DNA of 64,000 bases from Siphonodentalium dalli (Eukaryota; Mollusca; Scaphopoda; Gadilida; Siphonodentaliidae). A model generated the notes under the pieces. It was not told where the DNA came from. It was given only the letters and a program-made list of their open reading frames with translations, and searched no databases. Both the position numbers and the translations under genes were made by a program. The stretch lies in contig CP136061.1 of assembly GCA_032622095.1 (NCBI GenBank), forward strand, positions 14,833,287 through 14,897,286, written 5' to 3'. This document shows, one piece after another, positions 1-47,625 of the stretch (its first letter is position 1; each line of letters opens with the position of its first letter).

Positions 1-650
1 ATACAATAAATAAGTTGGTGGCAAACAAAGCCAAATATTACTCTTTTGAGTCGCAATCATTGGGGATAATAACATAACGTGTACATATGCAATACGTTGC
101 AGAAACATACATGCATGCTGGTTATCTTTGTCTCCTTAATAACGGTTTATTACGTATAAGTTAATCTGAGAAAGTTAATATTCCCACAATACCCATATAG
201 TGGCTTCTATAGACACGTATATATGTATATCAATATAGTAACAAATGAGTGGCATACAAAACAAATATAACACTTTTGAGTTGTAATCTTTAAGGACAAT
301 AACCTAACATGCATATGCAATGCGTTGAAATCCGTCAATAGGGAGACACATATAACCAGCATGTACGTGTCTCCCTAATCATGGTTTATTACATATCAGT
401 TAATTTGAGAAAGTTAATATTCCCACAGTGTCCACTATGTGGCTTCTATGGACACGTATTTATACCTATACAATAACAAATTGGGTGGCATACAAAGTCA
501 AATATAAGTCTTTGAGTTGTCATCATTAGGGACAATAACCTAACGTGTATATGCAATGCGTTGAAAACAGTTATTGGGGAGACATATATAACCAGCGTGT
601 ACGCGTCTACCTAATCACAGTTTTTTACCTATCAGTTATCATTTATTATA
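1..650. repeat. Tandem repeat, unit about 235 bp, 2.7 copies, open at the left window edge
   Basis: The phrase GTGGCATACAAA occurs at about 14 (as GTGGCAAACAAA), 249 and 486. Each is followed by the same order of motifs: TTTGAGT, GGACAATAACCTAACRTG, ATGCAATGCGTTG, GGGAGACA, and GTCTCCCTAATC. The array probably continues to the left of the window. A G10 run follows at about 669. Confidence 0.8.
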
Positions 651-1129
651 TTAACTCGCCACGTTATAGTACGGGGGGGGGGGAAGTCATATTGTACTCC
701 CAAATGTCATATTGGACTCCAGAGTGTACAATGCCACGTTATATTGGGACTCTGTGGCGTAACGAATTACCTATTGCGAAATAAACTGGTGAAATTGTGA
801 TGCGCGTACAACAGATTTAGCAAACGTTTCACTTCCGCGTTGAGTATTTTGTATTGCCGTGTTTACTGTTCCAAATCAAATCATGCATACTGTGTGTTTC
901 GTCATCACGGTTTCTACAAATAAAATGCGAGCGCACAATATCCATGTAACTTGTTAGTTTTTTATCATTCTACATTTATATTTATCTGATTTAAAAAATA
1001 AAACGATGAAAATACTAGGCACACACACATAGTAACATACTGGTATATAAGCCTTTTATCAAAGTCAGAATGTCATTTTGAAAAGATAAGAGATCACCCA
1101 TGACTATCTGTAAACGATTTAGAATTTGG

Positions 1130-2030
1130 AAAGTTGACGCATAATTTGGTCGCCTATTATAAAAAATAACCAAAAACAACCATGTCATCGATGACCTTTC
1201 ACCTATTAAATGGCGATCGCGATCTTTAAAAAAAATCGTATTAGTAGCGAAAACAGGAATGCATGTTTACATAGCACGTGTCTAATTATGCCAGCTAATG
1301 GGATTTTATATTCGAGAACAGTTGAAGCTGCTTTCACAGACCTGCGGCGGACGCACAAGGCCAACGCTATCGGGTTTGTGGCTGACCACTGGCACTGCGC
1401 ATAAACCGATAGCCGCAGACACTGCACGCATGCGTCAGCCGCAGGTCTGTGAAATCAGCTTTAACTTCAGACAGACAAAATTGCGACTACGACCTCCAAG
1501 TCATCTGGCCATGTGAACGGGTTCCAAACAATTATGTTTCGAGTGAAAAGGTCAGAGGTAGCAAAATACTCTAAATGACGCGGAACGTGAAATGTTGACG
1601 CATCATTTTGTCGTATATTGCAATTTTAGAAGATATGAACACTTCAATTAAAACAAGTTGTAAATTTTCAATGATCTTCCCACAACAATCATGTGATCGA
1701 TTTTGCAAAAAAAATGTATTGGTAATCGCATTAGCTCAAATATGACTGTACGATTACACACCACATGTCCCAATTAGGCCAGATAAAGGGATTTTATAAT
1801 CGACAACGGTTAAACCACAAGACAGACCACCACACTGTTGGTCCAACCAAATTGCGACCACGCCCTTTAGGCCATGTGTACGTGTGAACGGGTCCCAAAC
1901 CATATTCTTGCATATGGCGAAGTCCACCCGTTATGTGTGTACACCTCCTTTGGTAAGAAATACTGCTGACCTTGTGATTTTGATTGCGAATTATAAATGT
2001 TATACCTAAACAGAATACAACCAAAGCATA
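1130..2030. repeat. Diverged tandem duplication, unit about 460 bp
   Basis: Copy 1 (about 1130-1590) and copy 2 (about 1591-2030) share, in order, GTTGACGCATMATTTKGTCG, CCAG[C/A]TAA[T/A]GGGATTTTATA and AAATTGCGAC[T/C]ACG with GTGAACGGGT[T/C]CCAAAC. Copy 1 carries the palindrome at 1319-1470, which copy 2 lacks in intact form. Confidence 0.65.
1319..1470. repeat. Palindromic element, about 150 bp
   Basis: The left arm has TTTCACAGACCTGCGGC (about 1333) and the right arm GCCGCAGGTCTGTGAAA (about 1438). Further inside, CGCTATCGGGTTTGTGGC pairs with a diverged partner ending GATAGCCGCAG. It lies inside the first copy of the 460-bp duplication. The short ORFs on both strands here are by-products of the inverted repeat. 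Confidence 0.7.
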
Positions 2031-2176
2031 TTATGCAATCTGATTGTTAACATTTATGAGGCCTGATAACCCTGACTAGATCACAGGACGTATAACTGTT
2101 ATATTTATATATTTACATACACCTGATATCTCTTCCGATTTCACCATAGCGTTACGGTAGACACGCCCCCTTATTC

Positions 2177-2246
2177 AATGCGTTCATAAATCTATGAACG
2201 TAACGTCACGTTCAATGTCGTTCATAGGTTTATGAACACATTGTTC
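2177..2246. repeat. Short palindrome
   Basis: CAATGCGTTCATAAATCTATGAACG is answered about 20 bases later by its near reverse complement, starting CGTTCATAGGTTTATGAAC and ending ACATTG. Each arm also contains a smaller TTCATA..TATGAA palindrome. Confidence 0.6.
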
Positions 2247-2449
2247 CCGGAAATCACCGGGGATTGTCGGACATTACCGACTGCTTGAGTATCTAGTCAG
2301 CCAATACGCCAAGGATTTGATAGCAAACAATATGTAATCGAGGTTCACGATTGGATGGCTTGTGGCATCTGATCGCGAGCACGGGTGGCACAAGATGTTC
2401 GGTTGACTATCAGAATGTTGGTTATCATATAATTCCATAATATGTCAAA

Positions 2450-2600
2450 TATAGCGAATTATCGAAATATGAAATACAACGAAAAAGCGAAATATGAAAA
2501 TACAGCGAAATAGCACGAAAAATCGAGATAGGAAAATACAGCGAAATAGCGAAATAGGGCGAAATATAGAGCAAAATATAGAAATAGGAAATTATTTTTA
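2450..2600. repeat. Degenerate GCGAAATA simple repeat
   Basis: Loose tandem repeats of variants of AGCGAAATA and GAAAATACAGCGAAATAG. It causes a low-complexity ORF on the minus strand. Not coding. Confidence 0.65.
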
Positions 2601-2698
2601 TAAACAAAATAACGGACATATTTGAAAAAAGTGTTTTTGACTTAATAACGGACATATTTGGAGAAGTGTTTTAAAGAGCGTAAGTATATAAATATGAA

Positions 2699-2817
2699 TA
2701 ATAAACGGCGGACTCAACGTGGTCATGGGTTTTGACTGCGATAAAAAATCAGCAAACTCCGCATGAACCCCTTTGGGGTCAAAATCCCATGACCACATTG
2801 AAACCGCCGTTCATTTC
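2699..2817. mobile_element. Small inverted-repeat (MITE-like) element, 119 bp
   Basis: The left arm runs from AAACGGCGGACTCAACG to GGTCATGGGTTTTGAC. The right arm is its imperfect reverse complement, ending ACCGCCGTTCATT. Arms are about 38 bp around a 40-bp centre. Confidence 0.65.
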
Positions 2818-4605
2818 TTATATAAAACAAAGTGCACCATTCCAAATTTCATGCATATTCCACACCGAGATGCCAGGCCAGATGGCACTGAGTAAAATTT
2901 TATTCCATAAAATTATATGGATAGCATACACACACTGTTTACATTTAAAACAATTACATGTTTCTGAAATACGCTCAAATTCTTTCATCCTATCTGTGGT
3001 TCTACGTAACTCTGGGTGAGAATTTCACACTATATGTGCCATGAATCTGAATGAGCTAAGATCGCATGTAGTAACATCATGATTTATAATGGAATATGCA
3101 ATGGTTTGAATGTAATCAATTTCAATTGGGGGAGGGTCCGGGAGGGTGCGCGAGATCTTTTTTTGGATTTACAGCTGGGAGTTACCGTTCAAATATCGAG
3201 ATTAACGGGGTCTTTATTGGTGTTATATGGTGCTGACAGGTTCATTTAATGACAAAATTACGATTAGCCAATTAAGCTGGATAAACAACACATGTGGCGG
3301 CACACGTCGGTTTCATTTGCGGCCCAACCAAATATACCACATGTAATTTCATTAGGTTGTCGCTTGAGGGACCTAGCAGCAATAATACGCATCGTAGCAT
3401 TGATCTTGGTTACGAGCACTTTTGGGGTCCGTGAAGTTGGATCGAAGTTCGAAGTTCGAAATTCGGTGGAGATTCGACCCCCACTTTTGTTTGCCTCAAA
3501 TGCATTGTTGTGTTCCAATTCGTGCTCCCCTGCTCGAATTTTGGGTCAAAAGTGATTTTTTTTCACTTTTTCTGAGATACTGCTGGACTTGGAAAATTTA
3601 GCCACGGCGCTGGACTTATTTATGGCTGGATTGAGCTGAAATTTGGTATGTTTGATACTTTCCATAAGAGAATCAAGCAAACTAACGCTCAGCTTCGAGA
3701 AATTACTCGATCTATAGGTTTGAATTTCAATCTGGGCGAATTTCGATCTGGATTGAAGTTCGAAATTCAGATTGAAATTCGACCCCCACTTTTGTTTGCC
3801 TTAAGTGCATTGTTGTGTTCCAATTCGTGTTCCCCTGCTCGAATTTTGAGTCCAAAGTGATTTTTTTCACTTTTTCTGAGATACTGCTGGACTTGGAAAA
3901 TTTAGCCACGGCGCTGGACTTATTTATGGCTGGATTGAGCTGAAATTTGGTATGTTTGATTCTTTCCATAAGAGAATCAAGCAAACTAACGCTCAGCTTC
4001 GAGAAATTACTCGATCTATAGGTTTGAATTTCAATCTGAATTTTAATCTGGGCGAATTTCATTCTGGATTGAAGTTCGAAATTCAGATTGAAATTCAAAC
4101 CTATAGATCGAGTAATTTCTCGAAGCTGAGCGTTAGTTTGCTTGATTCTCTTATGGAAAGTATCAAACATGCCAAATTTCAGCTCAATCCAGCCATAAAC
4201 AATGCCACTTCCCTTCGGCACCTTAATATTGAAGGCCAAATTTTCTACGTCCAGCGTCGTGGCTAAATTTTCCAAGTCCAGCAGTATCTCAGAAAAAGTG
4301 AAAAAAATCACAAAAAAAGTGGGGGTCGAATTTCAATCTGAATTTCTAACTTCAATCCAGATCGAAATTCGCCCAGATTGAAATTCAGATTGAAATTCAA
4401 ACCTATAGATCGAGTAATTTCTCGAAGCTGAGCGTTAGTTTGCTTGATTCTCTTATGGAAAGTATCAAACATACCAAATTTCAGCTCAATCCAGCCATAA
4501 ACAATGCCACTTCCCTTCGGCACCTTAATATTGAAGGCGAAATTTTCTAAGTCCAGCGCCGTGGCTAAATTTTCCAAGTCCAGCAGGGGGGGGGGGGGGG
4601 GTCGG

Positions 4606-6070
4606 AAAAAAATTCCAGGCGCGTATGATGGGGTGGGTGGGTGGGTGTCTCTCGGGTCCAAAAAGCTGTTTTTTCCATGTGCCAAATTTTTTTTCCATTC
4701 CTGCTATTGAGTCTTATTTTGATGTGTTTTGAACAGAACCAGGTCATATATAGTTAATAGTAATGCTATACTATATATAGAGGTTATCAGTAGTTGGATC
4801 AGTTGCACAATGGCCAACAATAACCCAAATTCAACTTGATAGAACTAGAAACTGCGCTATTGGAAAATTAAATTTAATCAGGATTCCATCTACTGATACA
4901 ACAAAATAAGAATAACTATGCAGAACTCAGCTGAAAATAAGCAATAAAATGAAAGCACATTTGACCATATGAGACATGGAAATAAAGATATAATAAATAA
5001 TGGAATAAAATAGACTTTTGACAACATAAAACATAAAATCTTAACAAATAAATTGAAGGCCAGCCGGGCCAGCTTGAACAATTTCAAATTGTTTTCCAAG
5101 TTAATGTGGATCAGCTTGTAATGTTGATCACAGTAACAAAGATTTTATCGTCACTGATATCGTGAGCAAAAAAGAAGTGAGATTGGGCTATCCATCCATA
5201 GTATTCCCAATTATTACGAAGCCTATTACTTCAAGCAGTGGCTACCAGCCTGCCATTACACGCTATAACATGTTTCCTCAGTTCTGGTTTCTGAGATGCA
5301 CCAAGAAGAGTCACGCGGGTATATCATGGTTGTGTTTGGTATTAGCATTATTCTTCAAACTGGGATAAACTGGGATGAACAGTTGTATTTCCACATGTTT
5401 TGATAAACAATTTGGTTCCAGCAATACAGTAATGAACTAATTAAACGACTCCATAACCACAGCAGAATAATGGGTAATTTTTTCAGGGGAGAGCTTTCCG
5501 ATGAATGACAACAAGCCATATTTCCAACTAAATCCTGAAAAATTACCCATTATTTTGCTGTGGTTATGGAGTCAATTAATTAGGGCATTACTGTATATCA
5601 CATAGCAAATATCAAAATATCAAATAATCTGAAATTTGTTGTACCGGTACCATGTATTCTGTAGAATACTCAAATGTGATTATGTGACTAGATCATGTGA
5701 CTATATATTATGAAAATGAATGTTAATACAAACTTTGGCACTTTGCCTATATATCCCTAGAAATGTGATTATGTTGACACATTTCTTGATTAATGACACT
5801 TATATGATAAATTCAAATAGTATCGTTATCTCATTATGCACTGTTCTATTCAAATATCGCGCAATAAATTATGATAATGCAGGATAATCAGCTATTTGGT
5901 TGCTCAGTTGATAATTTTCTCAAATTTAAGGGGGGTGGGTATCCAAAACTGACCGGAAAAAAATTCCTGAAACGGAAAAAAGAGGGTGGGTGTCCAAAAT
6001 TGCCTGGAAAAAAAGGCCGGAAACGGAAGAAATTGGGTTGGTGGGTCCCCCGATGCCGGAAAAAATTAAA
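4606..6070. other. Spacer of the foldback element
   Basis: No gene seen. The right edge (5925-6065) has tandem GGGTGGGT..CCAAAA..TGCCTGGAAAAAA phrases related to the left edge at 4600-4660. A nested TIR element sits at 5425-5595. Confidence 0.5.
5425..5595. mobile_element. MITE, 171 bp, TACAGTAATG ends
   Basis: The left end begins TACAGTAATGAACTAATTAA. The right end closes with CATTACTGTA preceded by the reverse complement of the left arm. Arms of about 65 bp share ACTCCATAACCACAGCA and AATGGGTAATTTTT, with a central loop of about 45 bp. A TA flank fits Tc1/mariner-type insertion, but the family is not proven. Confidence 0.78.
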
Positions 6071-16100: not shown

Positions 16101-16466
16101 TATAGTGGCTCCATCCTACAGGGCGTTGTTCGAATATTTGTACGTGCATGGTGTGCATATAGAGACGTGGGTCATTGCACCTATGGGGTATTTTGGACCA
16201 CAACTTACATGTACACAATGTAACAGTCTTAGCCTGTTGTCCATGCGTCCCATACAAGGTATATATGTGGCTGAGTCCATTGCCTATTTGCATAATTATA
16301 TATGTGGGTCTATGACCTGTATAATGATGCTGGCTCCGTGGCTTGGAGCTAGCTAAGCTCATGCCCTATATATGTGCATCTGTACCCAACGCATCCCAAT
16401 GGGATACTCGCATATATACGAACATGCCTTGGCACACGATCCTTAATGCTGCTCCAGCGAAACTCC
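13131..16466. other. No gene recognised; one short hairpin
   Basis: About 3.3 kb of AT-rich sequence. At 14446-14500, GCGGGCCGATA pairs with TATCGGCCCGC. Two overlapping opposite-strand frames at 15961-16362 have no recognisable domain and I do not call them. Confidence 0.5.
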
Positions 16467-19400
16467 CGCCATGAACTGCGCGACATGATTAACAGTGCAT
16501 TGGTGTGAACGTCACACGCCCGCCAAGGACCCCACGGCAGGATTAACAGTGCATTGGTGTGAACATCACACGCCCGCCATGAACCCCACGGCAGGATTAA
16601 CAGTGCGTTGGTGTGGACACCACACGCCCGCCAAGGACCCCACGGCAGGATTAACAGTGCATTGGTGTGAACATCACACGCCCGCCATGAACCCCACGGC
16701 AGGATTAACAGTGCGTTGGTGTGGACATCACACGCCCGCCATGATCCATACGACATGATTAACAGTGCATTGGTGTGAACATCACACGCCCGCCAAGGTC
16801 CCCACGGCAGGATTAACAGTGCATTGGTGTGAACATCACACGCCCGCCATGATCCCTACGACATGATTAACAGTGCATTGGTGTGAACATCACACGCCCG
16901 CCAAGGACCCCACGGCAGGATTAACAGTGCGTTGGTGTGAACACCACACGCCCGCCAAGAACCCCCACGGCAGGATTAACAGTGCATTGGTGTGAACACC
17001 ACACGCCCGCCATGGACCCCACGACAGGATTAACAGTGCATTGGTGTGAACACCACACGCCCGCCATGAACCCCACGACAGGATTAACAGTGCATTGGTG
17101 TGAACACCACACGCCCGCCAAGAACCCCCACGGCAGGATTAACAGTGCATTGGTGTGAACACCACACGCCCGCCATGAACCCCACGACAGGATTAACAGT
17201 GCATTGGTGTGAACACCACACGCCCGCCATGATCCCTACGACATGATTAACAGTGCATTGGTGTGAACATCACACGCCCGCCAAGTACCCCACGGCAGGA
17301 TTAACAGTGCGTTGGTGTGAACATCACACGCCCGCCATGATCCCGACGACATGATTAACAGTGCATTGGTGTGAACATCACATGCCCGCCATGATCCCTA
17401 CGACATGATTAACAGTGCATTGGTGTGAACATCACACGCCCGCCATGAACCCCACGACAGGATTAACAGTGCATTGGTGTGAACATCACACGCCCGCCAT
17501 GATCCCTACGACATGATTAACAGTGCATTGGTGTGAACATCACACGCCCGCCAAGGACCCCACGGCAGGATTAACAGTGCGTTGCTGTGAACATCACACG
17601 CCCGCCATGAACCCCACGGCAGGATTAACAGTGCATTTGTGTGAACACCACACGCCCGCCATGAACCCCACGACAGGATTAACAGTGCATTGGTGTGAAC
17701 ACCACACGCCCGCCAACACCCCATGGCAGGATTAACAGTGCATTGGTGTGAACACCACACGGCCGCCATGAACCCTACGACAGGATTAACAGTGCATTGG
17801 TGTGAACACCACACGGCCGCCAAGAACCCCCACGGCAGGATTAACAGTGCATTGGTGTGAACACCACACGCCCGCCATGAACCCCACGACAGGATTAACA
17901 GTGCATTGGTGTGAACACCACACGCCCGCCATGAACCCCACGACAGGATTAACAGTGCATTGGTGTGAACACCACACGCCCGCCATGAACCCCACGACAG
18001 GATTAACAGTGCATTGGTGTGAACACCACACGCCCGCCATGAAACCCCACGACAGGATTAACAGTGCATTGGTGTGAACACCACACGCCCGCCATGATCC
18101 CCACGGCAGGATTAACAGTGCATTGGTGTGAACACCACACGCCCGCCAAGAACCCCACGACAGGATTAACAGTGCATTGGTGTGAACACCACACGCCTGC
18201 CATGAACCCCACTACAGGATTAACAGTGCATTGGTGTGAACACCACACGCCCGCCATGGACCCCACGACAGGATTAACAGTGCATTGGTGTGAACACCAC
18301 ACGCCCGCCATGAACCCCACGACAGGATTAACAGTGCATTGGTGTGAACTCCACACGCCCGCCAAGAACCCCACGACAGGATTAACGGTGCATTGATGTG
18401 AACACCACACGCCCGCCAAGGACCCCACGGCAGGATTAACAGTGCGTTGGTGTGAACATCACACGCCCGCCATGAACCCCACGACTGGATTAACAGTGCA
18501 TTGGTGTGAACACCACACGCCCGCCAACACCCCACGGCAGGATTAACAGTGCATTGGTGTGAACGTCCCACGCCCGCCAAGGACCCCACGGCAGGATTAA
18601 CAGTGCGTTGGTGTGAACGTCCCACGCCCGCCATGAACCCCACGGCAGGATTAACAGTGCATTGGTGTGAACACCACACGCCCGCCATGAACCCCACGGC
18701 AGGATTAACAGTGCGTTGGTGTGAACACCACACGCCCGCCATGAACCCCACGGCAGTATTAACAGTGCATTGGTGTGAACATCACACGCCCGCCAAGAAC
18801 CCCACGACAGGATTAACAGTGCGTTGATGTGAACACCACACGCCCGCCATGAACCCCACGACAGGATTAACAGTGCATTGTTGTGAACATCACACGCCCG
18901 CCATGAACCCCACGACAGGATTAACAGTGCATCGGTGTGAACATCACACGCCCGCCAAGAACCCCCACGGCAGGATTAACAGTGCATTGGTGTGAACACC
19001 ACACGCCCGCCAAGAACCCCCACGGCAGGATTAACAGTGCATTGGTGTGAACACCACACGCCCGCTAAGAACCCCCACGGCAGGATTAACATTGCATTGG
19101 TGTGAACACCATACGCCCGCCATGAACCCCACGACAGGATTAACAGTGCATTGGTGTGAACACCACACGCCCGCCAAGAACCCCCACGGCAGGATTAACA
19201 GTGCATTGGTGTGAACACCACACGCCCGCCATGATCCCCACGGCAGGATTAACAGTGCATTGGTGTGAACACCATACGCCCGCCATGAACCCCACGACAG
19301 GATTAACAGTGCATTGGTGTGAACACCATACGCCCGCCATGAACCCCACGACAGGATTAACAGTGCATTGGTGTGAACACCACACGCCCGCCAAGAACCC

Positions 19401-19932
19401 CCACGGCAGGATTAACAGTGCATTGGTGTGAACACCACACGCCCGCCAAGAACCCCCACGGCAGGATTAACAGTGCATTGGTGTGAACACCATACGCCCG
19501 CCATGAACCCCACGACAGGATTAACAGTGCATTGGTGTGAACACCACACGCCCGCCAAGAACCCCCACGGCAGGATTAACAGTGCATTGGTGTGAACACC
19601 ACACGCCCGCCATGATCCCCACGGCAGGATTAACAGTGCATTGGTGTGAACACCATACGCCCGCCATGAACCCCACGACAGGATTAACAGTGCATTGGTG
19701 TGAACACCATACGCCCGCCATGAACCCCACGACAGGATTAACAGTGCATTGGTGTGAACACCACACGCCCGCCAAGAACCCCCACGGCAGGATTAACAGT
19801 GCATTGGTATGAACATCACACGCCCGCCATGATCCCCACGACAGGATTAACGGTGCATTGGTATGAACATCACACGCCCGCCATGATCCCCACGACAGGA
19901 TTAACAGTGCGTTGGTGTGAACATCCCACGCG
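16467..19932. repeat. Satellite array, 54-bp unit, about 64 copies
   Basis: Unit AGGATTAACAGTGCATTGGT, then GTGAACACCACACGCCCGCC, then ATGAACCCCACGAC. Variants include GCGTTG for GCATTG, AACATC for AACACC, CAAGGACC or ATGATCC for ATGAACC, and a 55-bp form with an extra C. Because 54 is a multiple of three, frames stay open over many units on both strands; these are not genes. Each unit contains the near-palindrome GGTGTGAACACC. A degenerate unit marks the left edge and CCCACGCG the right edge. Confidence 0.95.
19056..19817. repeat. Higher-order duplication within the 54-bp satellite, period 381 bp
   Basis: The stretch around 19140-19431 is repeated at 19521-19812 with identical translation in two frames. 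The offset is 381 bp, which is seven monomers, three of them of 55 bp. This indicates a recent block duplication inside the array. The outer limits of the duplicated block are approximate. Confidence 0.85.
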
Positions 19933-24195: not shown

Positions 24196-24226
24196 TTTTG
24201 AAATGAGTAACGTGAATTCGTCGGAA

Positions 24227-24496
24227 GGGGGATAACCCAATACAGAACGTACTAGCGACTAAATAAGGGAGATAACCCAATACAGAACGTACTACCGACT
24301 AAATAAGGGAGATAACCCAATACAGAACGTACTACCGACTAAATAAGGGAGATAACCCAATACAGAACGTACTACCGACTAAATAAGGGAGATAACCCAA
24401 TACAGAACGTACTACCGACTAAATAAGGGAGATAACCCAATACAGAACGTACTACCGACTAAATAAGGGAGATAACCCAATACAGAACGTACTACC
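24227..24496. repeat. Minisatellite, 40-bp unit, 6.75 copies
   Basis: Unit GGGAGATAACCCAATACAGA followed by ACGTACTACCGACTAAATAA, almost without variation after the first copy. It contains the dispersed AAGGGAGATAAC motif. A further 2.5 copies lie at 27912-28013. Confidence 0.93.
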
Positions 24497-27911: not shown

Positions 27912-28013
27912 GTACTACCGACTAAATAAGGGAGATAACCCAATACAGAACGTACTACCGACTAAATAAGGGAGATAACCCAATACAGAACGTACTACCG
28001 ACTAAATAAGGGA
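27912..28013. repeat. Second locus of the 40-bp minisatellite, 2.5 copies
   Basis: Same unit and orientation as 24227-24496, including the GACTAAATAAGGGAGATAAC junction. The two loci bracket 3.4 kb that holds two palindromic elements. Confidence 0.9.
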
Positions 28014-31705: not shown

Positions 31706-33066
31706 TACGGGACCCGAATTCTTGCACTGGTTTAATTGTGTGGGCGGGGCGCTCGTAAGATCAAAATCATGCAGAAAGGTACGTGTTTCCAACAATAGCT
31801 AGGTATAGATATCATTACACCAGGGACATGACTAGAGAGTCTTTGTTGTGGTGTCCAGCTTTGAGTTTCCAACTGCACTATCATTAACCGGACAGAAATT
31901 GCCAACTACATTGGACACTAATCGGTAAACATCTACAACACACCAAATGGGGACAATGGGTGAATACAAGTCGGAAAAATAATCGACTTTTTATTTGAAA
32001 TAAAACAAATAAAATGAACGAATATGATTATGGGACAGAAATATCCAGGGCATATTTCAATGTGTATTACACGTTTAGTTTAAGTTTAAGTTGTGCTGTT
32101 GATTGTCAGCATGAGTAAGTCATTACATTTCTGGAATCCTTTGCCGAGACAAAGTATATTTTAGAATATATGGACCAACAATATAGTCATATCACTATGT
32201 AGACTATGTATTAACGATAGCTCCGCATATTGTGATATATGCTTACTGTATTCTTATAAATTGTTATGTTATACCCATAGGTCCCTGACACAAAATTGGT
32301 ACGAACGTACCTTTTTTGTGGAAAACTGTCCCCAGATATTTATAACTATTAACTATCTCAATTGGAAGATTATCTAGTATGAAACCTGGTGTCGTTTTTT
32401 TGCATGTGTGCCAAATTGCCGGACATTGTCTATACATAAACGGGTGGGGGTGACCGGTGATATGTATATATGTTCAACTTGTTTTGGTAGTCATGTTGCT
32501 TTGCCATTATTTTTCAGTCTAATATCATGTGGGAGATGGGTACCCATAAATGAGTCAGCACTTGTCCTCCAATCACATTGTCTGTATAAACAAATATATG
32601 TGATATATATCATGTGTTATATAAATTAGACAAATAAATATGTTCAAACAAAATATAAAAGAGTAGGATCTGTCTGGCTATATGTCTGCCTGTTCGGAAT
32701 TTTCTCCGTACCGCTGGACAGATTTCAACCAAACTGGGCGTGGTGACTCGGGGTATCACGGCAGAGGTCACAGCGTCGTTAGTTTATCAAATATTTATTT
32801 GAAAAGAGGATATTTTGAAGTAGATTTTCTATATATATATAATAGTATGACGCACGCCCGCCCCCCCCCCCCCTCCCGGTGAGAACCTGTTTCAGCTAGT
32901 TGTATTACGTATAATTCAGGACATAATATTGAATATTGAAGATCACCTCATAATGACGATGTAAACGTGTACTCACAACAGAGAATAATTCACAATCATG
33001 GGCATCCTTGGAATATACACCGAATATAAAGTATCTGATGTTAAATTGTACACTTGTGTAGGGAAG
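31706..33066. other. No gene recognised
   Basis: About 1.36 kb. At 32690-32770 the phrase CCGCTGGACAGATTTCAACCAAACTGG resembles the repeat leaders at 52140, 53850 and 63540. A C-rich run lies at 32858-32874. Confidence 0.45.
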
Positions 33067-33068
33067 TA

Positions 33069-33535
33069 TATATGTGACCCGCCATATCAAATCCAGTCGT
33101 AAGTCGGGATTTTTTTACCCTATGCCAATGCATTCTCTTATATATGCGAGTCGACCATATGTCGCCTCGCATATATAAGAGAATGCATTGGCCTAACAAT
33201 TTTTTATCATTTTTTAAAAAATAAATGTTTCTTACAATTTTTAGGACATAAAATAAAAAACATCCATAACCCTGCAGGGAGCCCCACACATATATAGAAG
33301 CACATATAAGAGTGTCGTCTGCTCATGTTTGTCTGGGGCTCTGTATGGGAGAAATTCTAAAATTGTTAAAGAATACAAGAAAAAAATATTAAAAATGATA
33401 AAAAATTGTTAGGCCAATGCATTCTCGTATATATGCGAGGCGACCCATGGTCGACTCGCATATATAAGAGAATGCATTTGCACAGGGTAAAACAAATCCC
33501 GACTTACGACTGTATTTGATATGACGGGTCAGATA
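33069..33535 (+). mobile_element. Double-hairpin TIR element, copy B, 467 bp
   Basis: Same ends, same two mirror hairpins and same central CTGCAGGGAGCCCCACACAT and TCTGCTCATGTTTGTCTGGG segments as the copies at 21719 and 55763. It lies just left of the gene-bearing element. Short ORFs inside (for example 33041-33289) are shared with the other copies only because the DNA is the same. Confidence 0.88.
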
Positions 33536-33822
33536 TAGACAATTTACTGTATTCTAATGTGATGTTATAGTTGTATGTATACTATTTATGTCTTGGTTGT
33601 TAACTTTGATTTACGTTTACTCCAGACATATATTTTATTACAATTATGTCCAGCAATATACCATGGCATGAATTGAAACAAACTCTTCATATGACAAAAA
33701 ATACAATGTATTTGCCCGACAATTGCCCGACGGAAGTCCTGCCTGGAGTATTTTAGGGGGTTGACACACACCCTACACCCCCATAATTTACGTCCCTGTA
33801 TATATACGCGTTCTTCAGAGTT

Positions 33823-33852: not shown

Positions 33853-34079
33853 ATATAACCAATTATTGATGAGCACTCTGCTTGATAGCTTCACTTTCAA
33901 TAATTAGTGGAGCAGATATGTGAATAATCGTTACCGTTAATGAATAAATTGTGAAATTTGGCCCAGACGTTCCTGGTTGGGTCCTTTGAAAATATTTCTG
34001 GTAGGCAACTGGATCGGACAATTTTTAGGGTGTTTTGGGGGTTTCCATAGCAACGAACCCCATTTCAGCCTACTTTTCT

Positions 34080-34788
34080 CAGAAAAATGTATACAAGACC
34101 GGAGATTGTGGGTAGATCGGAGTTATTTTTTACTCAAAATACCACGCTAGTGACAGAAGTCTTACCCGACAACTTTTAGGCAACTAGAAGCACGGGTTGG
34201 TTGCTATGGGGACCAACTATACCAAGTCACGTGACCAATATACGTTGATGAATGGAACATGTGTATTCGAAGAGATGGACTTCAAATCAATATATATTTA
34301 GAACTAATTCGTGGGTATTATTCCCAGAATCTACTCATATTAAGTATTGTTAGACATTAAACTGTTGTATTAACGAAAACCATTTCAAATTGGGATTACT
34401 TATTATACCCAAAATACTCTCGAAAAGTGGAAATTTCTCGAAATAAGTTTGCCACCCATATGTCGTTATCAACACACTTGCGCTAGATTATGCTGGTTAA
34501 TATGACCATCTTACATGTACATCAATTAGATATATATGTAACGTGTCTAATAGTGTGTAGATTTACATTGGTCATAAGGGATGGCTGCCAAAATGGTCAC
34601 AACATATGACCGAGTCGCCCATTTTGTTAAAGTTCAAAACAGGCTATTTCAATATGGAAAATTCAGGTTTTATATCAAAATAAACACATACTATAATGTT
34701 ATCAGAGAGCTCTTCTAATCAAATTGAATTAACCGATTGATGAAAATAGTCTTCATTGTACAGTTTCTGTTGATGAGCTCATGCATAC
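34080..34788. other. Non-coding spacer between left TIR and gene 3' end
   Basis: No ORF or repeat of note. It holds a second copy of the GGTTGGTTGCTATGG motif at about 34196, in the same orientation as the one inside the right TIR. Confidence 0.5.
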
Positions 34789-37700
34789 CTAATGGGCTCC
34801 CTTCCGTTCACAACTTTCACCGCACAAGCAAATGTCAGTACACTGTAGACCATGTTTTCCACACGAGCAATGCATGCATTTAGCACCCACTTTCAAGCAT
34901 TTACAGTGAGAGAGTTCTTGACACGACTTAGCTATTTGGTCAAGATTTGTCCATGTTGGGTTCCACATATTTCTCTCGGATGATTCCCAACCCCAATCAG
35001 AAGGATCAGGGGGTTGGTATGATATGTCTAACGAATTTTCCCATATCCGTGCTTGGTAGACACTCCGCCTGATATGCTGGAGGAGAGCAGCTCGTGACGG
35101 GGGCAGTCGGTCAAAAGCTTTCCCTTTTTTTGTGAACATGTCTCGTCGCGTTGCGTCAATGTTGTTCCCTTCGCTGGTACGATCAAACAGAAACATAACA
35201 TATTTTTCAATACTACAAATGTCTTCATAACTGACTCTTTCAAGCGTGCGGAGAGATATGAACTGTTCTGTTACGTCGGTGAACCCATTCCAACATTTAA
35301 TGCAACTCTTCTTTCCGTGGTTGGCAAATCCCGAGCAGGTGTCGCATCCCGTGAAGGCATGAAAAAAGGGAAGAGCTGATGATCGGTCTGGTCCAAGACC
35401 GTCGCTAATTTCACGCACGGATATCACGCGCTCAAACTTTCCTGTGCCGAACATGATATACAGATTGTCGAGAGTGAGTTGTCTCACCAGAGAAATGGCT
35501 ATCACGACCACGTCAGAGTCTACAGTATAAATTGTTATATTCCTTAATCCAGCGTCTGTCGCATGTTTTACATGTAGGAGCAACCTTGTGTCTGCTTCCT
35601 CTTGATTGCAAGGAGAAATAGTATCAACATGGAACGTGTCTGAGCTCGACACCACTGTCTCGTTCAATGTCGCAACAAGCACCCCACATACGGGTGTCAC
35701 ATTTACAATATTTTTTGCCAGAAAGTTGAAAAGTTCTGATTTATTTGTTGAGCAACTGAGGAAGTTTTTCCACTTATTGCCTCTTGGGACTTTTGCGCTG
35801 TCAGTTACACGAATTCTCGTACCTTCACCAAGTCTTGCTCGCGTTGCATTTTTCAGGCTATTTGGAACATAGACATCAAACACAACATCCACACGCACAC
35901 ACTTCTCACCGAGATATGAACACAATTTCGGGATAAAAACGTCGTGAGCGTAGTCTGAAAATGTGGCTGTAGTTGCATACGGAACGGTCATATGAACCAT
36001 GGCAGCTCCATCTATGATGACGCAGTCACTCTCTGGAACTACATCACGTTCACAAAAGCTCTCCAGAAATGGTAAAATGTCAGACTTTTTGTTCACGAGC
36101 ATATCCCCGTTATCTGATATAGAAGGTGGGCATGCTTGATTTTCATGCATAAAGAAATCCAACATGTCAACACCGCGAATTATGGCAATGGTGAATAGCT
36201 TTGAGAAAAGTTCTAAGTCATTTCTCAACATTTTGATAGTGTTTTTTGCTTTATTTTTGTTGCGTGATCTATGCTGGAACAAAAGAAAGTTATTCCGAGT
36301 CATGGGTTCCCAGAATGCACACTGATTGAGGTTTTTGGTATATGTGCTAACACTTTCTAGTCCTGTGCTCTCTATTCGAAAAACATTGGCATTCATAACA
36401 GTGTCAGCCAAAACGTTTGTACTTATATTCATTAGTTCTGAGACAAGGAACGGATTTGACAAGTCATTCAATTTCGAGGTCAATGCAGCAACTTCCGCAC
36501 TGTAAGATATTATAACTGCTTTGGTGCTTTCATGGTGGGATAAGTAGCCCTGGATTGGCGCGTTGGTATTGCTCTTAAACGAGTCAAGAAGCTTGGCCAC
36601 TTCTGGTCCCGCAATCAACCATCTCAGCAGAATTCCCGGATCCTCGCTCAAGCCCACTGATCCACTACCGGCCTTAATCAACGCGTTGTTCTGTTCATGG
36701 GCCTGGTCCAGACCCATTGCAGAGAACTTTCTCAGAGATTTCCGTACAACGAAGTTCCCCATGACAAATTCGGAATACACGGATGGGTGTTTGCTTTCCA
36801 AATCGAGCATGTCCTTGATGTGAACTAGTAGCATTCGCGCATAATTAGGCATGTCCATGGCATGAACGAAATGAACAATGGAGCACATACTCTGGACGTA
36901 TAGATCGAAATCTCCAACGCGCACAGACCGAATGAATGCAAGTACGTGGATAATCAAGTTCAGAATCATGTGCCAGAATTTAAACATGGGATTGTCACTT
37001 GATTTCTGTTTGATCCAATCCTTGATGTCACAAATACTGTTGCTAGTATTATCGGTGTACTCGTTGTAAGCAGCAACCATTTCGTGATACATGACAACGG
37101 CAGTTATTTCGTGATAGTGACGAGCTTTCTTAATGGACGCAACTTTTAGTAAAGAATCAGCGGTACCAGACCCGACAAGTCCTGCTTCCGACAATAGCTC
37201 ACACCAGCCGCTTGAATTTAAGAGTTTACCCGTTACTGCCAATAACTCTTTCTCGATGTGTAGGGGACCTAGCATTACAACGAATTTACTCTCCCCGAAC
37301 TCATTGGGCAATAACCACTGCACTGTCTTTGCTGGTGCATATAGTGGACAATCTGCAGCAATAATGGGCGTCTGTGTCGGATTTAGATGGTGAGTTGCAA
37401 CTTTAACAATATCCATGGAATGCTTTGTCATTGCAAATGTGGCAGATTTTTGTGAGAACAGAGGTAATAGAGCGGTAAGAGTTAAATTCAATGTCTCGGG
37501 ATCCCCATATTGTTTCTCTTGCGAAAGAGCCCACGGAACGAGGGTCTCACCCGTGTAATCACCTTTACCGGTCACGTTCTCTTGAAGCCAAGTTAATTCT
37601 GGTTGAATTAGTTTTTCTGATTCAATATTTCGTTTTATGAATTGAAACAGCTTTTCACCGTCATTCTCCTCATTTCTATCGCAGAACGATGAGTCCACCG

Positions 37701-38076
37701 AAACACCAGGAAATGGCACGGGATCACGTTTTGTGGATTTACACGGTTTAATGAAAGCATAGTGGTCAGGAAGAGAGCTAACCTTTCTCGAACTTTTCTT
37801 ACGTGGTTCTCTGGAGGGGATACTCAACGAACGCTCGATCCCCGGATTTGATTGTGTTGGATATTGAAATAAAGATATGCCGGTTCCATGAAAGGACTCC
37901 TTAGCCGTTGCTGATGATGGATCTAAATCTATGTTATCGAATGCACCAACTGTGAATAGGTTTCTCCTCATATTAGTTGGACATACGACACCCTCATCGC
38001 GGAATTGCTCTACTGCTGAATCTGCCATTGTTGTCGTGATCTCCATAACACGGTCATACGATATACTGAGGCCCAT
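34789..38076 (-). CDS. C-terminal part of the same protein: PIN/FEN-like nuclease region plus CXC-type cysteine cluster (1,095 codons)
   Basis: Open without a stop for 3.3 kb. The ATG at 38076 is internal; the same frame is open upstream to the 7-A run near 38206, so the real start is 39355. Residues 235-300 hold an AADCPLYA and GPLHIE pair, and 440-490 hold an AHEQNN segment; both look like conserved cores, function unknown. Residues 685-915 have the acidic pattern of a PIN/FEN-like nuclease: D689 in IIDG, D730/D734 in VDVVFD, E827-A-D829, D853/D855 in TVDSDVVV, and G-C-D912. The C-terminus (C1058-C1089) has nine cysteines spaced C-x-C-x6-C-x2-C-x-C-x6-C-x3-C-x-C-x3-C, like the CXC motif of Tesmin/TSO1 proteins. 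The nuclease assignment is inferred from residue pattern only. No AATAAA was seen within about 290 bp downstream. Confidence 0.88.
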   Translation of the reverse strand: MGLSISYDRVMEITTTMADSAVEQFRDEGVVCPTNMRRNLFTVGAFDNIDLDPSSATAKESFHGTGISLFQYPTQSNPGIERSLSIPSREPRKKSSRKVSSLPDHYAFIKPCKSTKRDPVPFPGVSVDSSFCDRNEENDGEKLFQFIKRNIESEKLIQPELTWLQENVTGKGDYTGETLVPWALSQEKQYGDPETLNLTLTALLPLFSQKSATFAMTKHSMDIVKVATHHLNPTQTPIIAADCPLYAPAKTVQWLLPNEFGESKFVVMLGPLHIEKELLAVTGKLLNSSGWCELLSEAGLVGSGTADSLLKVASIKKARHYHEITAVVMYHEMVAAYNEYTDNTSNSICDIKDWIKQKSSDNPMFKFWHMILNLIIHVLAFIRSVRVGDFDLYVQSMCSIVHFVHAMDMPNYARMLLVHIKDMLDLESKHPSVYSEFVMGNFVVRKSLRKFSAMGLDQAHEQNNALIKAGSGSVGLSEDPGILLRWLIAGPEVAKLLDSFKSNTNAPIQGYLSHHESTKAVIISYSAEVAALTSKLNDLSNPFLVSELMNISTNVLADTVMNANVFRIESTGLESVSTYTKNLNQCAFWEPMTRNNFLLFQHRSRNKNKAKNTIKMLRNDLELFSKLFTIAIIRGVDMLDFFMHENQACPPSISDNGDMLVNKKSDILPFLESFCERDVVPESDCVIIDGAAMVHMTVPYATTATFSDYAHDVFIPKLCSYLGEKCVRVDVVFDVYVPNSLKNATRARLGEGTRIRVTDSAKVPRGNKWKNFLSCSTNKSELFNFLAKNIVNVTPVCGVLVATLNETVVSSSDTFHVDTISPCNQEEADTRLLLHVKHATDAGLRNITIYTVDSDVVVIAISLVRQLTLDNLYIMFGTGKFERVISVREISDGLGPDRSSALPFFHAFTGCDTCSGFANHGKKSCIKCWNGFTDVTEQFISLRTLERVSYEDICSIEKYVMFLFDRTSEGNNIDATRRDMFTKKGKAFDRLPPSRAALLQHIRRSVYQARIWENSLDISYQPPDPSDWGWESSERNMWNPTWTNLDQIAKSCQELSHCKCLKVGAKCMHCSCGKHGLQCTDICLCGESCERKGAH

Positions 38077-38089
38077 GTCATGAAATATA

Positions 38090-39355
38090 TCAATGAGTTC
38101 TCGACTTCGCGTCTTTGCGTGAAGTAAGAGTCCTATGTATATAGGTAACGGTGGCTCTCGTTTTCTCGAATGTCGCGCTGCTGCACTTTTTGCATCTTTC
38201 TTGCGTTTTTTTGTAAGAATTGAAAAGAATCAATTGGGCAACAGATAAAACATATTTTGATATCCTCGTTTCGCAGTTGACTAATGTAAGTAGAGAATCG
38301 GGAAGTGATTCCTCTTGCGTTTTACTATCCAGTGACTCAATATTATCTGATATTCTTGGTTTAAAGTTGAAAATTTCCTGGCGAATTTTTCGTACCGTCC
38401 TCGCAAGGCGATAGCACTCGGTGTCTGAGTCAACCATATCTAACGCTGTAGCAATTTCGTCATCGAACGCAAACACAATTTCTCTTCCGGACTTGTAGGA
38501 CCGCATTCCTGGAACCTGTGTGAGAATGCGTGCTTTTAGTCTGCTCGGATTTATATTCGTCCGCTTACCATAAAATTCAGAACGTTCTTCGTACATCTTA
38601 CGGAGATAAGAAAGTTTGAATGTTGTACCGCCAGTGCCGGAATGAGACTCCTCCATCCACATCATGATTTCAGTCAATATGATTGGTTCATAATTGCTGA
38701 TGGGGAGATGTTCCAAAAGTCGACGATTCGTTTCACTTCTTGCTCTGTTATAGAGAGAAAGCATGCACCCCGTGTGGTATTTTGCCTCTTGACTAATTAA
38801 ATCGCCTGCACTCAAAACTGCTAAAAGTTTCTCATCTTGCAACAGAGTCGCACAATCTTCAACCATTCGGCACTTCGAAAATGATTCCACTGTACAAACA
38901 TCTGAGTCAGTCAATCGTGCAAATTTATCACAAATGAAGCACTGATCACCAGGAGAGCTAAGACTTCCTGTCGAAGAATCATGGCGACCACCAAGTGAAG
39001 AGCGGAGAAACTTCTTAGCCGAATCCGGTGTTTCCAATGCTTTGCGTTTTGATGCTATCTTTGACTTTAATCTATCCGAACTTACATTCCGTTTACAGTT
39101 TTTATGGATCTTCGCTTTATTTCGATTCAGAACGTCAGCTATATTACCATCGTCGCCGAGAGTCCCAAGCTCAGTTGTATATATACCATTGTCCAGAAAC
39201 ATCTTAATTCTGTCGCCAACATCTTGAAAATCAGTCGGATACAACACAGGATTAGACGGCATATCAGCATCACCCTGACAGAAGTAACATTTGTTCCAGT
39301 CAATTTCCCTTGTATGTACACTTTGACTCTTTACCAGTGGTGGAGCATCACTCAT
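38090..39355 (-). CDS. N-terminal part of a large zinc-binding, transposon-type protein (421 codons, ends by frameshift)
   Basis: Function unknown; it is the first part of the protein continued at 34789-38076. Seen: an ATG at 39355 with A at -3 and an in-frame TGA four codons upstream, so the N-terminus is complete. There are two similar metal-binding modules: C23-x2-C26 with H84-x2-C87, and C139-x2-C142 with H194-x2-C197, the latter inside a QEAKYHTGCML-like stretch. Residues 220-380 are mixed helical without a motif I recognise. From about residue 384 the frame is wrong: the last 38 residues read through the continuation in a shifted frame, and the stop at 38090 is spurious. Known from memory, not checked: similar N-termini with paired CxxC/HxxC modules occur in multi-copy uncharacterised proteins of cnidarians and molluscs. 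Inference: DNA-binding or structural region of a mobile-element protein. Confidence 0.85.
   Translation of the reverse strand: MSDAPPLVKSQSVHTREIDWNKCYFCQGDADMPSNPVLYPTDFQDVGDRIKMFLDNGIYTTELGTLGDDGNIADVLNRNKAKIHKNCKRNVSSDRLKSKIASKRKALETPDSAKKFLRSSLGGRHDSSTGSLSSPGDQCFICDKFARLTDSDVCTVESFSKCRMVEDCATLLQDEKLLAVLSAGDLISQEAKYHTGCMLSLYNRARSETNRRLLEHLPISNYEPIILTEIMMWMEESHSGTGGTTFKLSYLRKMYEERSEFYGKRTNINPSRLKARILTQVPGMRSYKSGREIVFAFDDEIATALDMVDSDTECYRLARTVRKIRQEIFNFKPRISDNIESLDSKTQEESLPDSLLTLVNCETRISKYVLSVAQLILFNSYKKTQERCKKCSSATFEKTRATVTYIHRTLTSRKDAKSRTH
38200..38212 (-). other. Frameshift site joining the two ORFs (7-A run)
   Basis: Read on the minus strand, codons TAC AAA are followed by a run of seven A and then CGC. 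Dropping one A makes the 421-codon frame continue directly into the 1,095-codon frame through about 43 codons without a stop. The continued peptide is rich in K/R and then hydrophobic, as a linker would be. From ATG to final stop the locus is 4,567 bases, 3n+1, so exactly one extra base explains the break. The shift needed is +1, so although the run contains A AAA AAC, it is not in the phase of a classical -1 slippery heptamer. Confidence 0.85.
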
Positions 39356-39376
39356 TGTGGATTTTCAGCTTCCAAT

Positions 39377-39404
39377 CCTGTAAATAGAAGAAGTCAGGAG
39401 AATT
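39377..39404 (-). promoter_or_regulatory. Candidate 3' splice acceptor in the 5' leader of the large gene
   Basis: On the minus strand, 23 bases before the ATG at 39355, a pyrimidine-rich stretch ends in TTTACAG followed by G, with a branch-point-like TCTAAT about 20 bases further upstream. This is what a 5'UTR intron acceptor looks like in animals. The donor was not identified. No RNA evidence is available here. Confidence 0.45.
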
Positions 39405-40660
39405 AGAAACGTAATGACACAAAAAAGAACGAGAGAGAACAAGATATGTCATACAATTGTGGATGCATACTGAAACGCAATCATTGCAACACTAAAGAAG
39501 GGATCCGCAATTGTTAACATATCGGCTTTCCGTAGTTTTTTATCCATGTGCGTGACGTTTAACATGGAGTGAAAATCACCATAGTTCATATATTTGTGTT
39601 ATAATATTCAATTTGATAAAGATATGCACCACGTATCAAGCATGTGAAAAGGGGTTGGTTGGCTGAACGGGAAAACAAATAATCACCGCCGTCATGTATA
39701 GTTAGTCAACATAAATATTTCCACTTTCATCACAAAATATTTCACTCAAATCTTGATTTTATTCTGGTGAACCGTTGTGCTATAAAACAATAGTAGACTT
39801 ACCACATGAAATATCTGGTTCTGTTACTTTCTCTTTTAGTCTTCAGTTTTAGAAAGTGAATCCGATCGAAGATGTTTTTTTGAACGCACGCGGTTCTGAA
39901 ACTTCCGGCTTAAAAAATGTATGGAAGGCCAGATGCACAACAACAAACTTAGGGAACGTGAGGCGGAATAATTATAAATATTTATGATTTTAGACATAAG
40001 TTATCTTGTGATTGAATAATTGTTCAAATTTACTCGCTACCATTTGTTGTCTACCGGGAATCCGGGAAGAGACGATTTCCAGTGTAACCATTGTATTGGC
40101 ACAGTTGGGGAACGCTTGTTTCCATGACAACTAGGACCTAAATGTGGGTATAGCGAAACCAGCTTTGAGGATATATATAACATTTTAAGAGCTGCGAAAA
40201 TGTAATCTTATAGCGGGAATTCCAATTCTTAACATGTTCACCAAAGCTACTACCGGAACATCATTTTTTCAACAACCAATCTCGAAACAGCTAATTCGCG
40301 CCAACTGGTGTTCATATAAATCTTCGTTTATTGTGGTCAATCACTAACTAAATCCGGAAAATCTGTTATATTGTCTTTATGGAATACCGATGATGATATA
40401 ATCTTAAATTGAAACATATTACATAAAATTTGTGCGTACTGGTATAAACTAAATACAAATTTTATTTTTTTTAACTCAATTTTTTAAGAAAATCCACTCG
40501 TTTCCATGACAACAAACAAAACTGTGCTGACCTGGACCCAATTTTTACAGTCTGTTGTATAGAGTGGCCCTTCCTCTATTGGACAAAGAAACACCTACAT
40601 CGATATTGCTGATAATGTTCACATAGCTGTCCGTCAAAATTAACTGCCCTATACCGTAAA
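39405..40660. other. Non-coding 5' flank of the gene within the element
   Basis: AT-rich sequence with no coding potential seen. Presumed promoter and 5' leader region of the large gene. TTTCCATGACAAC-type motifs recur near 40119 and 40501. No TATA box can be assigned with confidence. Confidence 0.4.
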
Positions 40661-41254
40661 TTATAACAGGGGTTGGTTGCTATGGCAACAGCTTAATCAC
40701 CCTAAATAAGCTCGGAATTTTTTGCCTACCGAATTATTTTAACCGCGACATACCAAAAATTAAGTGTGCAAAATTTCGTAATTTATTCACAAAGTGTAAC
40801 GATTCGCTATTTTCTGGCACTTATCCGCTCCACTAAATAAGCGAGGTAACTCTATATCGACACAGATTGGTTTTCTGCCGTGCATATTGACTATTTGTGT
40901 GATACAATGATGAATGCCATTGCTCGGTCCCAACGGTTATACAGACAAATGCAAAATACATGGACTGGCTAAAGAATCACATAAAGAACCACTATTCGGT
41001 TGGTGGTGGCTATTTTCGCTCTCAGTTCATGTGTAGAATTATATAGCACGCTTCATTAATTAAGCCTACATATATTCATATACAGCTAACTTGTCATAGG
41101 GGGCATATATGACCACCAATTAGAGTGTGTACCGGTCAGATACACACGATAAAATAACTTCTGAAAATGTATGATAAAATCGCTGGAAATATATTTTCCC
41201 TAAAATTACGAGTATGCCGGTTAACTTTTAAACTTAATAAATGCTACACTCTTA

Positions 41255-45044: not shown

Positions 45045-47625
45045 ATTAGAGACGTTTCGTTAATATCACTATTACGATTACGGATAGGTTATATTGTCCT
45101 AGTAAGGTGGACACATCACAGTTACGATTACGGTAAGGATATATTGTCCTAGTAAAGTGGACACATCACTATTACGATCACGGATAGGATATATTGTCCT
45201 AGTAAAGTGGACACATCACAATTACGATTACGGATAGGATATATTGTCCTAGTAAGGTGGACACATCACTATTACGATTACGGATAGGTTATATTGTCCT
45301 AGTAAAGTGGACACATCACTATTACGATTACGGATAGGTTATATTGTCCTAGTAAAGTGGACACATCACTATTACGATTACGGATAGGATATATTGTCCT
45401 AGTAAAGTGGACACATCACAATTACGATTACGGATAGGATATATTGTCCTAGTAAAGTGGACACATCACTATTACGATCGCGGATAGGATATATTGTCCT
45501 AGTAAGGTGGACACATCACTATTACGATCGCGGATAGGATATATTGTCCTAGTAAAGTGGACACATCACTATTACGATTACGGATAGGATATATTATCCT
45601 ATAGTAAGGTGGACACATCACTATTACGATTACGGATAGGATATATTGACCTAGTAAGGTGGACACATGACTATTACGATTACGGATAGGTTATATTGTC
45701 CTAGTAAGGTGGACACATCACTATTACGATTACGGATAGGTTATATTGTCCTAGTAAGGTGGACACATCACTATTACGATTACGGATAGGATATATTGTC
45801 CTAATAAGGTGGACACATGACTATTACGATTACGGATAGGATATATTGTCCTAGTATAATGTGGACACATCACTATGACGATTTCGGTTAGGATATATTG
45901 TCCTAGTAAGGTGGACACATGACTATTACGATTACGGATAGGATATATTGACCTAGTATAAAGTGGACACATCACTATTACGATTACGGATAGGATATAT
46001 TGTCCTAGTAAGGTGGACACATGACTATTACGATTACGGATAGGTTATATTGTCCTAGTAGGGTGGACACATCACTATTACGATTACGGATAGGATATAT
46101 TGTCCTAGTAAGGTGGACACATCACTATTACGATTACGGATAGGATATATTGTCCTAGTAAGGTGGACACATCACTATTACGATTACGGATAGGATATAT
46201 TGTCCTAATAAGGTGGACACATCACTATTACGATTACGGATAGGATATATTGTCCTAGTAAAGTGGACACATCACTATTACGATTACGGATAGGATATAT
46301 TGTCCTAATAAGGTGGACACATCACTATTACGATTACGGATAGGATATATTGTCCTAATAAGGTGGACACATGACTATTACGATTACGGATAGGATATAT
46401 TGTCCTAGTAAGGTGGACACATCACTATTACGATTACGGATAGGATATATTGTCCTAATAAGGTGGACACATGACTATTACGATTACGGATAGGATATAT
46501 TGTCCTAGTAAGGTGGACACATCACTATTACGATTACGGATAGGATATATTGTCCTAATAAGGTGGACACATGACTATTACGATTACGGATAGGATATAT
46601 TGTCCTAATAAGGTGGACACATGACTATTACGATTACGGATAGGATATATTGTCCTAATAAGGTGGACACATCACTATTACGATTACGGATAGGTTATAT
46701 TGTCCTAGTAAGGTGGACACATCACTATTACGATTACGGATAGGATATATTGTCCTAGTAAGGTGGACACATGACTATTACGATTACGGTTAGGATATAT
46801 TGTCCTAGTAAGGTGGACACATGACTATTACGATTACGGATAGGATATATTGTCCTAATAAGGTGGACACATGACTATTACGATTACGGATAGGATATAT
46901 TGTCCTAATAAGGTGGACACATGACTATTACGATTACGGATAGGATATATTGTCCTAGTAAGGTGGACACATGACTATTACGATTACGGATAGGATATAT
47001 TGACCTAATAAGGTGGACACATCACTATTACGATTACGGATAGGATATATTGTCCTAGTAAGGTGGACACATGACTATTACGATTACGGATAGGTTATAT
47101 TGTCCTAGTAAGGTGGACACATCACTATTACGATTACGGATAGGATATATTGTCCTAGTAAGGTGGACACATGACTATTACGATTACGGATAGGATATAT
47201 TGTCCTAATAAGGTGGACACATGACTATTACGATTACGGATAGGATATATTGTCCTAATAAGGTGGACACATCACTATTACGATTACGGATAGGACAGAA
47301 AGTCCTAGTATAATGTGGACACATCACAATTTACCTGCGAGGGCTAATTGGTGAGAAGGCATTATGCCCCACTATATTCAGTTACACATATATTTGATGG
47401 ATAAAGTAATGTGTGTCTCTTTCAGATCTCATGTTTGTATCCGTATGTAATACACCACATGGATAATGTTATATAGAGCGTCCCCAAGCAGGACCGGTGG
47501 TACACTATTGACATATAATTAAATATAGTTCGTCTCACATGCCTTTTGCTCTAATTTTGGCCGTATCCTGGCAGGATATTTCCATATCCGTAATCCTAGT
47601 CGTGATTTTGCGAAAGGTTTCTATT
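45045..47625. mobile_element. Satellite-bearing TIR element, 2.58 kb, ends like the 130-bp MITE at 23798
   Basis: Left end ATTAGAGACGTTTCGTTAAT then ATCACTATTACGATTACGG. The right end, reversed, reads AATAGAAACCTTTCGCAAAA then TCACGACTAGGATTACGG. These match the MITE at 23798-23927. Between them lie the 50-bp satellite (45067-47329) and 250 bp of unique sequence. Confidence 0.7.
45067..47329. repeat. Satellite array, 50-bp unit, about 45 copies
   Basis: Unit CACTATTACGATTACGGATA, then GGATATATTGTCCTAGTAAG, then GTGGACACAT. Variants are GACTATT for CACTATT, GGTTATATT for GGATATATT and CTAATAAGG for CTAGTAAGG. From 46021 to about 47290 the period is exactly 50. Confidence 0.95.

Follow-up and report, generated by a model that had tools for sequence, protein, structure and literature searches.

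Transposons of the Academ superfamily, including the AcademX lineage, were reportedly described by Kapitonov and Jurka in 2010 and by Kojima in 2020. In a later study, target-site duplications of 3 or 4 bp in AcademX and of 9 or 10 bp in AcademH are tied to an encoded nuclease and an encoded helicase, respectively (Kojima 2023, PMC10045372). Two other papers count Academ among the superfamilies with a DDE (aspartate-aspartate-glutamate) transposase (PMC9587614) and present it, among molluscs, as almost exclusive to bivalves, with 100 curated elements of mean length 5,565 bp (PMC10294476). Here we analysed a stretch of 64,000 nucleotides from the scaphopod Siphonodentalium dalli (assembly GCA_032622095.1, contig CP136061.1, positions 14,833,287 to 14,897,286), called the window below. 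It carries a transposon with a long transposase gene. Judged from published descriptions, it is most probably a cut-and-paste DNA transposon forming a new family in the AcademX branch of the Academ superfamily.

The left end of the element lies at 33905, starting TAGTGGAGC..., and the right end at 40835, finishing ...CCACTA (Table 1). An earlier note on this DNA, made from the sequence alone, had described inverted repeats on both sides of the gene. These were borne out: the first 157 nt align with the last 167 nt, reverse-complemented, at a gapped score of 52, where shuffling one arm base by base 300 times gave a mean of 10 and a maximum of 16. AAT stands on both flanks. Twenty loci were fetched from the genome (L009-L028, window copy included). 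A 3-bp duplication was found in all eight copies with both ends recognised: AAT (window copy), TTT, TTA, ATA, ATA, TAT, TAG and AAC, the middle base being A or T every time. Duplications were scored in these eight, the other 12 loci showing at most one end in the stretch fetched. From the window copy taken alone a 4-bp duplication would also be possible, and this was rejected because the other copies are compatible with 3 bp only. No empty site was found in the assembly, where a query made of the joined flanks, with the element removed, matched nothing but the two flanks of the window copy, which overlap by AAT.

The genome (2.23 Gb, nine contigs) was searched with positions 33900-36800 as nucleotide query, copy counts being lower bounds. 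There were at least 45 matches (40 of 158 candidates scored); besides the window, nine extend over 2,700 or more of the 2,901 query bases at 97-99% identity. Copies at least 94% identical and with the same ends lie on seven contigs. Over the matched pieces, 14 of the 19 other fetched loci are 95.4-98.6% identical to the window copy, the nearest being L010 (98.6%), and a further one, L023, is 88.5% identical. Four more, L025-L028, are 82-83% identical over only about 700 bp at the left end. Because this is the portion shared, and no transposase match was found in the fetched stretch, they probably form a non-autonomous family; one of them, L026, has both ends and the AAC duplication. Three loci on one contig (L013, L014 and L016, contig C2) agree in their left flank and in an internal piece that is inverted, which suggests that a single rearranged insertion was duplicated. 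No relatives were found in viral, prokaryote, plasmid and phage collections. In NCBIfam the matches were weak and bore no relation to each other.

The transposon is real, and its movement is recent enough that the copies are still mostly 95-99% alike. The transposable nature put forward in the earlier note is supported by the many copies, their common ends and the 3-bp duplications in eight of eight. The genome search that the note had suggested yielded many copies and defined ends and target duplications. What it had named as contrary outcomes, a single copy or repeats apart from the gene, was not what we found: copies are many, and in them the gene and the repeats occur together.

The transposase gene is on the minus strand. 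The earlier note had read it as a single frame of 1,520 codons; in the window copy it is interrupted by a frame change and consists of two open reading frames (ORFs), of 421 and 1095 amino acids (aa), in different frames. At their junction, a homopolymer run differs in length by one base from that in all 12 aligning loci among the 19 others fetched, a difference that may stem from mutation or from sequencing error. We considered whether an intron or a programmed frameshift separates the ORFs and judge this unlikely, since the 12 aligning loci are without the length difference and the frames of seven divergent relatives run on unbroken. This rejection is somewhat weakened by L010, which is without the window's junction difference and, owing to a separate 2-base gap some 50 nt from it, is also split into two ORFs. 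The longest stop-free frame among the 20 loci is 1,146 residues, so that none of the close copies fetched is intact. Open frames were met further afield: a protein search of the genome gave at least 53 matches (42 of 5,146 candidates scored). Eighteen of them are 35-41% identical, and seven of these 18 have stop-free frames of 1,507-1,534 residues.

Residues are numbered below along the C-terminal ORF. The parts of the protein listed in the earlier note were recovered: two CxxC..HxxC modules, both within the N-terminal ORF; the named acids, at exactly the residue numbers given; and the nine-cysteine CXC tail, with nine cysteines at 1058-1089 and a tenth at 1052. Ten divergent loci (L029-L038) were fetched and eight aligned with the window ORF, giving nine sequences; L033 and L038 were omitted because they share their ends with L031. 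The divergent members are 33-39% identical to the window protein. D242, E461, D689, D730, D734, E827, D829, D853 and D855 are present in nine of nine sequences, D47 in eight of eight and D912 in seven of seven having a letter at the position. Many other columns are invariant too, some of them acidic (e.g. D408, D457, E516), so that invariance alone cannot name the catalytic residues. The cysteine pattern found the nine-cysteine tail in all four full-length relatives, and the pattern for the second CxxC..HxxC module picked it up in three of the four (L030 missed); the window tail itself escaped the cysteine pattern because one gap is longer.

Two putative catalytic sets can be read from these residues at the level of motifs. 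D47, D242 and E461, which the earlier note had missed, have the layout of a DDE triad. A hydrophobic stretch precedes D47 (hhTxAxDNID), D242 is part of PVIxxDxP, with GxLHIE after it, and E461 is found within DQxHEQ. The second set, in the order hhDG, VxFD, EEAD, TxDxD and G-x-D..GKK, seems to follow the order of FEN/XPG nucleases in a by-eye comparison with host XPG-family exons and with the FEN1 motifs.

A more distant relative, L055, is 25% identical to the window protein. Its ORF (403-5025, minus strand) is an open frame of 1,541 residues in which both acidic sets are kept except for D730, D912 being read by eye; the frame ends without the nine-cysteine tail. L055 passes the cut-off of the Pfam family DUF6589 (29.4 bits versus 27, E 4.4e-7), the only one of ten aligned members to do so; another, at E 0.021, falls short of the cut-off, and the window protein has no Pfam match to DUF6589. 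From L055, the sequence suggests that DUF6589 is part of a transposase. The family has at least 90 matches in the genome (102 of 196 candidates scored). Four DUF6589 loci share the motifs GDN and GGDQ, and the three reaching further have DLxMEH. Beside L056, the only DUF6589 locus so inspected, an ORF on the opposite strand contains QEVGRAGRDG and scores 22.8 bits with RecQ_Zn_bind, under the cut-off of 25. This RecQ-like helicase fragment (L060:2231-2749, plus strand) is about 0.6 kb from the L056 DUF6589 gene, as expected for a helicase-bearing sister such as AcademH, and the L060/L056 locus is possibly an AcademH-type element. We infer that DUF6589 corresponds to AcademH. The data offer a weak sequence link between DUF6589 and this group of transposases.

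The 3-bp duplications together with the nuclease-like domain point to AcademX, and in one of four divergent families, L031 (protein about 35% identical), both ends were likewise located (TAGTGTAGGTAGTTAGC) with a 3-bp duplication, TTC. Several results weigh against the placement. In the other three families, L029, L030 and L032, ends were not found in about 2 kb fetched on each side. The nuclease of AcademX is of the XPG type, and the Pfam families XPG_N and XPG_I found nothing in the nine aligned members even with E values of up to 10 allowed; Pfam as a whole gave no match for the window protein. A direct search of PDB was negative; profile searches of it had an unrelated GTPase as best match (E 0.2) and revealed no FEN/XPG similarity. 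In hhalign comparisons, four host sequences gave a score of 16.4, when column shuffles reached 18.4 in 60, and Asteroid gave P 0.6, no support for FEN/XPG similarity. Smith-Waterman comparison of nine sequences with Asteroid was negative as well (z -0.8 to 2.3, controls up to 1.4). A single-sequence AlphaFold model, with a mean predicted local distance difference test score of 33, was unusable. The DUF6589 link depends on one member above the cut-off, and the profile comparison with DUF6589 genes, which pairs MEH with the HEQ of E461, has P 0.01 and a probability of only 4.1%. The FEN/PIN-like acid set of the earlier note is upheld by conservation and by none of the fold or similarity tests.

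The earlier note had also raised a mobilisation unlike that of DDE enzymes, with the FEN/PIN-like domain itself as transposition catalyst. Its acids are indeed conserved to the same degree as the DDE-like set, but the upstream D-D-E set is equally invariant, and because of this triad we judge movement without DDE chemistry very unlikely. The uniform 3-bp duplication, usual for DDE integration, also counts against it. Moreover, a nuclease with 3-4 bp duplications is already published for AcademX in PMC10045372, in a superfamily that PMC9587614 lists as DDE. A host gene lying as a single copy between inverted repeats by chance, an idea to which the unusually long coding region might lend itself, has a negligible probability: copies at least 94% identical lie on seven contigs with the same ends and separate 3-bp duplications, the flanks of the window copy occur nowhere else in the assembly, and the many copies rule such a gene out.

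The element could also belong to a separate, undescribed DDE superfamily that was joined independently to a FEN-like nuclease and merely resembles AcademX. AcademX was compared by description only and Pfam has no match for the window protein, both of which leave room for it. Yet duplication length and transposase-nuclease make-up coincide with what is reported for AcademX, and Academ is given as common in bivalves in PMC10294476; we regard a separate superfamily as unlikely. With the AcademX placement, the supposed new mobilisation class is removed and the element is most likely placed in a known superfamily. In a literature search combining XPG, terminal inverted repeats and DDE transposase, no matching paper was found.

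For an AcademX-type element, the following mechanism may be sketched. Binding to the inverted repeats and subterminal palindromes would fall to the zinc modules, to the CXC-like tail or to the two together. The DDE-like centre (D47, D242, E461) would cut the 3′ ends and carry out strand transfer with a 3-bp stagger, and the FEN/XPG-like domain would serve as an accessory nuclease, either cutting or trimming the opposite strand or resolving flaps. A bolder reading, which is speculative and which we consider improbable, would have one polypeptide hold two unrelated metal-ion sites sharing excision, DDE for the transferred strand and FEN/XPG-like for the other strand or flaps, with subterminal palindromes identical to the RFX X-box recruiting a host factor. 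The clear ends, near-identical copies and open-frame relatives are material for studying the role of the putative nuclease-like domain.

The palindromes in question are five GTTGCYATGGYAAC sites with at most two mismatches, all outside the ORFs, near the element ends and on both sides of the gene. In 20 single-base shuffles, 0.05 were expected and the maximum was 1; at three mismatches the figures are 5 versus 1.1. The same sites are seen in all seven further close copies that were scanned, and in L025-L028; common descent would account for this, and it does not prove a function.

Table 1. Window coordinates of the transposon copy and its parts
Feature	Positions	Strand	Remark
Whole transposon copy	33905..40835	.	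6,931 bp; ends common to other copies
Left target-site duplication AAT	33902..33904	.	
Right target-site duplication AAT	40836..40838	.	
Left imperfect terminal inverted repeat	33905..34061	+	gapped alignment of arms
Right imperfect terminal inverted repeat	40669..40835	-	gapped alignment of arms
N-terminal ORF of transposase gene	38090..39355	-	421 aa
C-terminal ORF of transposase gene	34789..38076	-	1095 aa, different frame
First CxxC..HxxC module	39086..39289	-	in N-terminal ORF
Second CxxC..HxxC module	38756..38941	-	in N-terminal ORF
Putative DDE core, D47 to E461	36694..37938	-	D242 and GxLH motif with H273 between; conservation
Putative FEN/XPG-like nuclease acids, D689 to D912	35341..36012	-	motif level only
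CXC-like cysteine tail	34792..34905	-	residues 1058-1095
Palindromic motif near GTTGCYATGGYAAC	34041..34054	.	1 mismatch
GTTGCYATGGYAAC-like motif	34200..34213	.	2 mismatches
GTTGCYATGGYAAC-like motif	40118..40131	.	2 mismatches
GTTGCYATGGYAAC-like motif	40500..40513	.	2 mismatches
GTTGCYATGGYAAC motif	40676..40689	.	perfect

Elsewhere in the window, a fold-back sequence lies just left of the element (33066-33540; arms of 105 nt with 94% complementarity and, outside them, arms of 51 nt). Two long tandem arrays were seen, one in a G+C-rich stretch (16465-19931, 64 copies of a 54-bp unit) and one at 45065-47331 (45 copies of a 50-bp unit). One 40-bp repeat unit occurs, rotated, in two near-perfect arrays (24225-24496 and 27912-28013) about 3.4 kb apart.

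Among known systems, Zisupton/KDZ elements differ by their duplications of 7-8 bp (PMC12730594), as compared with 3 bp here. Kolobok lineages with an accessory nuclease or helicase resemble the window family in adding such an enzyme to a DDE transposase; as described in PMC9587614, they are set apart by other nuclease types and by C/DxxH where the window family has GxLH. With the FEN1/XPG flap nucleases, the window family shares the order of acids and their local contexts, by eye against host exons, and has no significant sequence or profile similarity. AcademH is approached through L055, above the DUF6589 cut-off, and through the weak profile alignment of DLxMEH with the HEQ of E461; it differs by the 9-10 bp duplications and the helicase reported for it, whereas the window element has 3 bp and its two ORFs had no match to a helicase family. 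AcademX, to which the element is likened by description and with a putative nuclease read here at motif level, is the closest: the 3-bp duplications, in eight of eight copies and in L031, are within the reported 3 or 4 bp, and they go together with terminal inverted repeats and a long protein carrying both DDE-like and nuclease-like acid sets.

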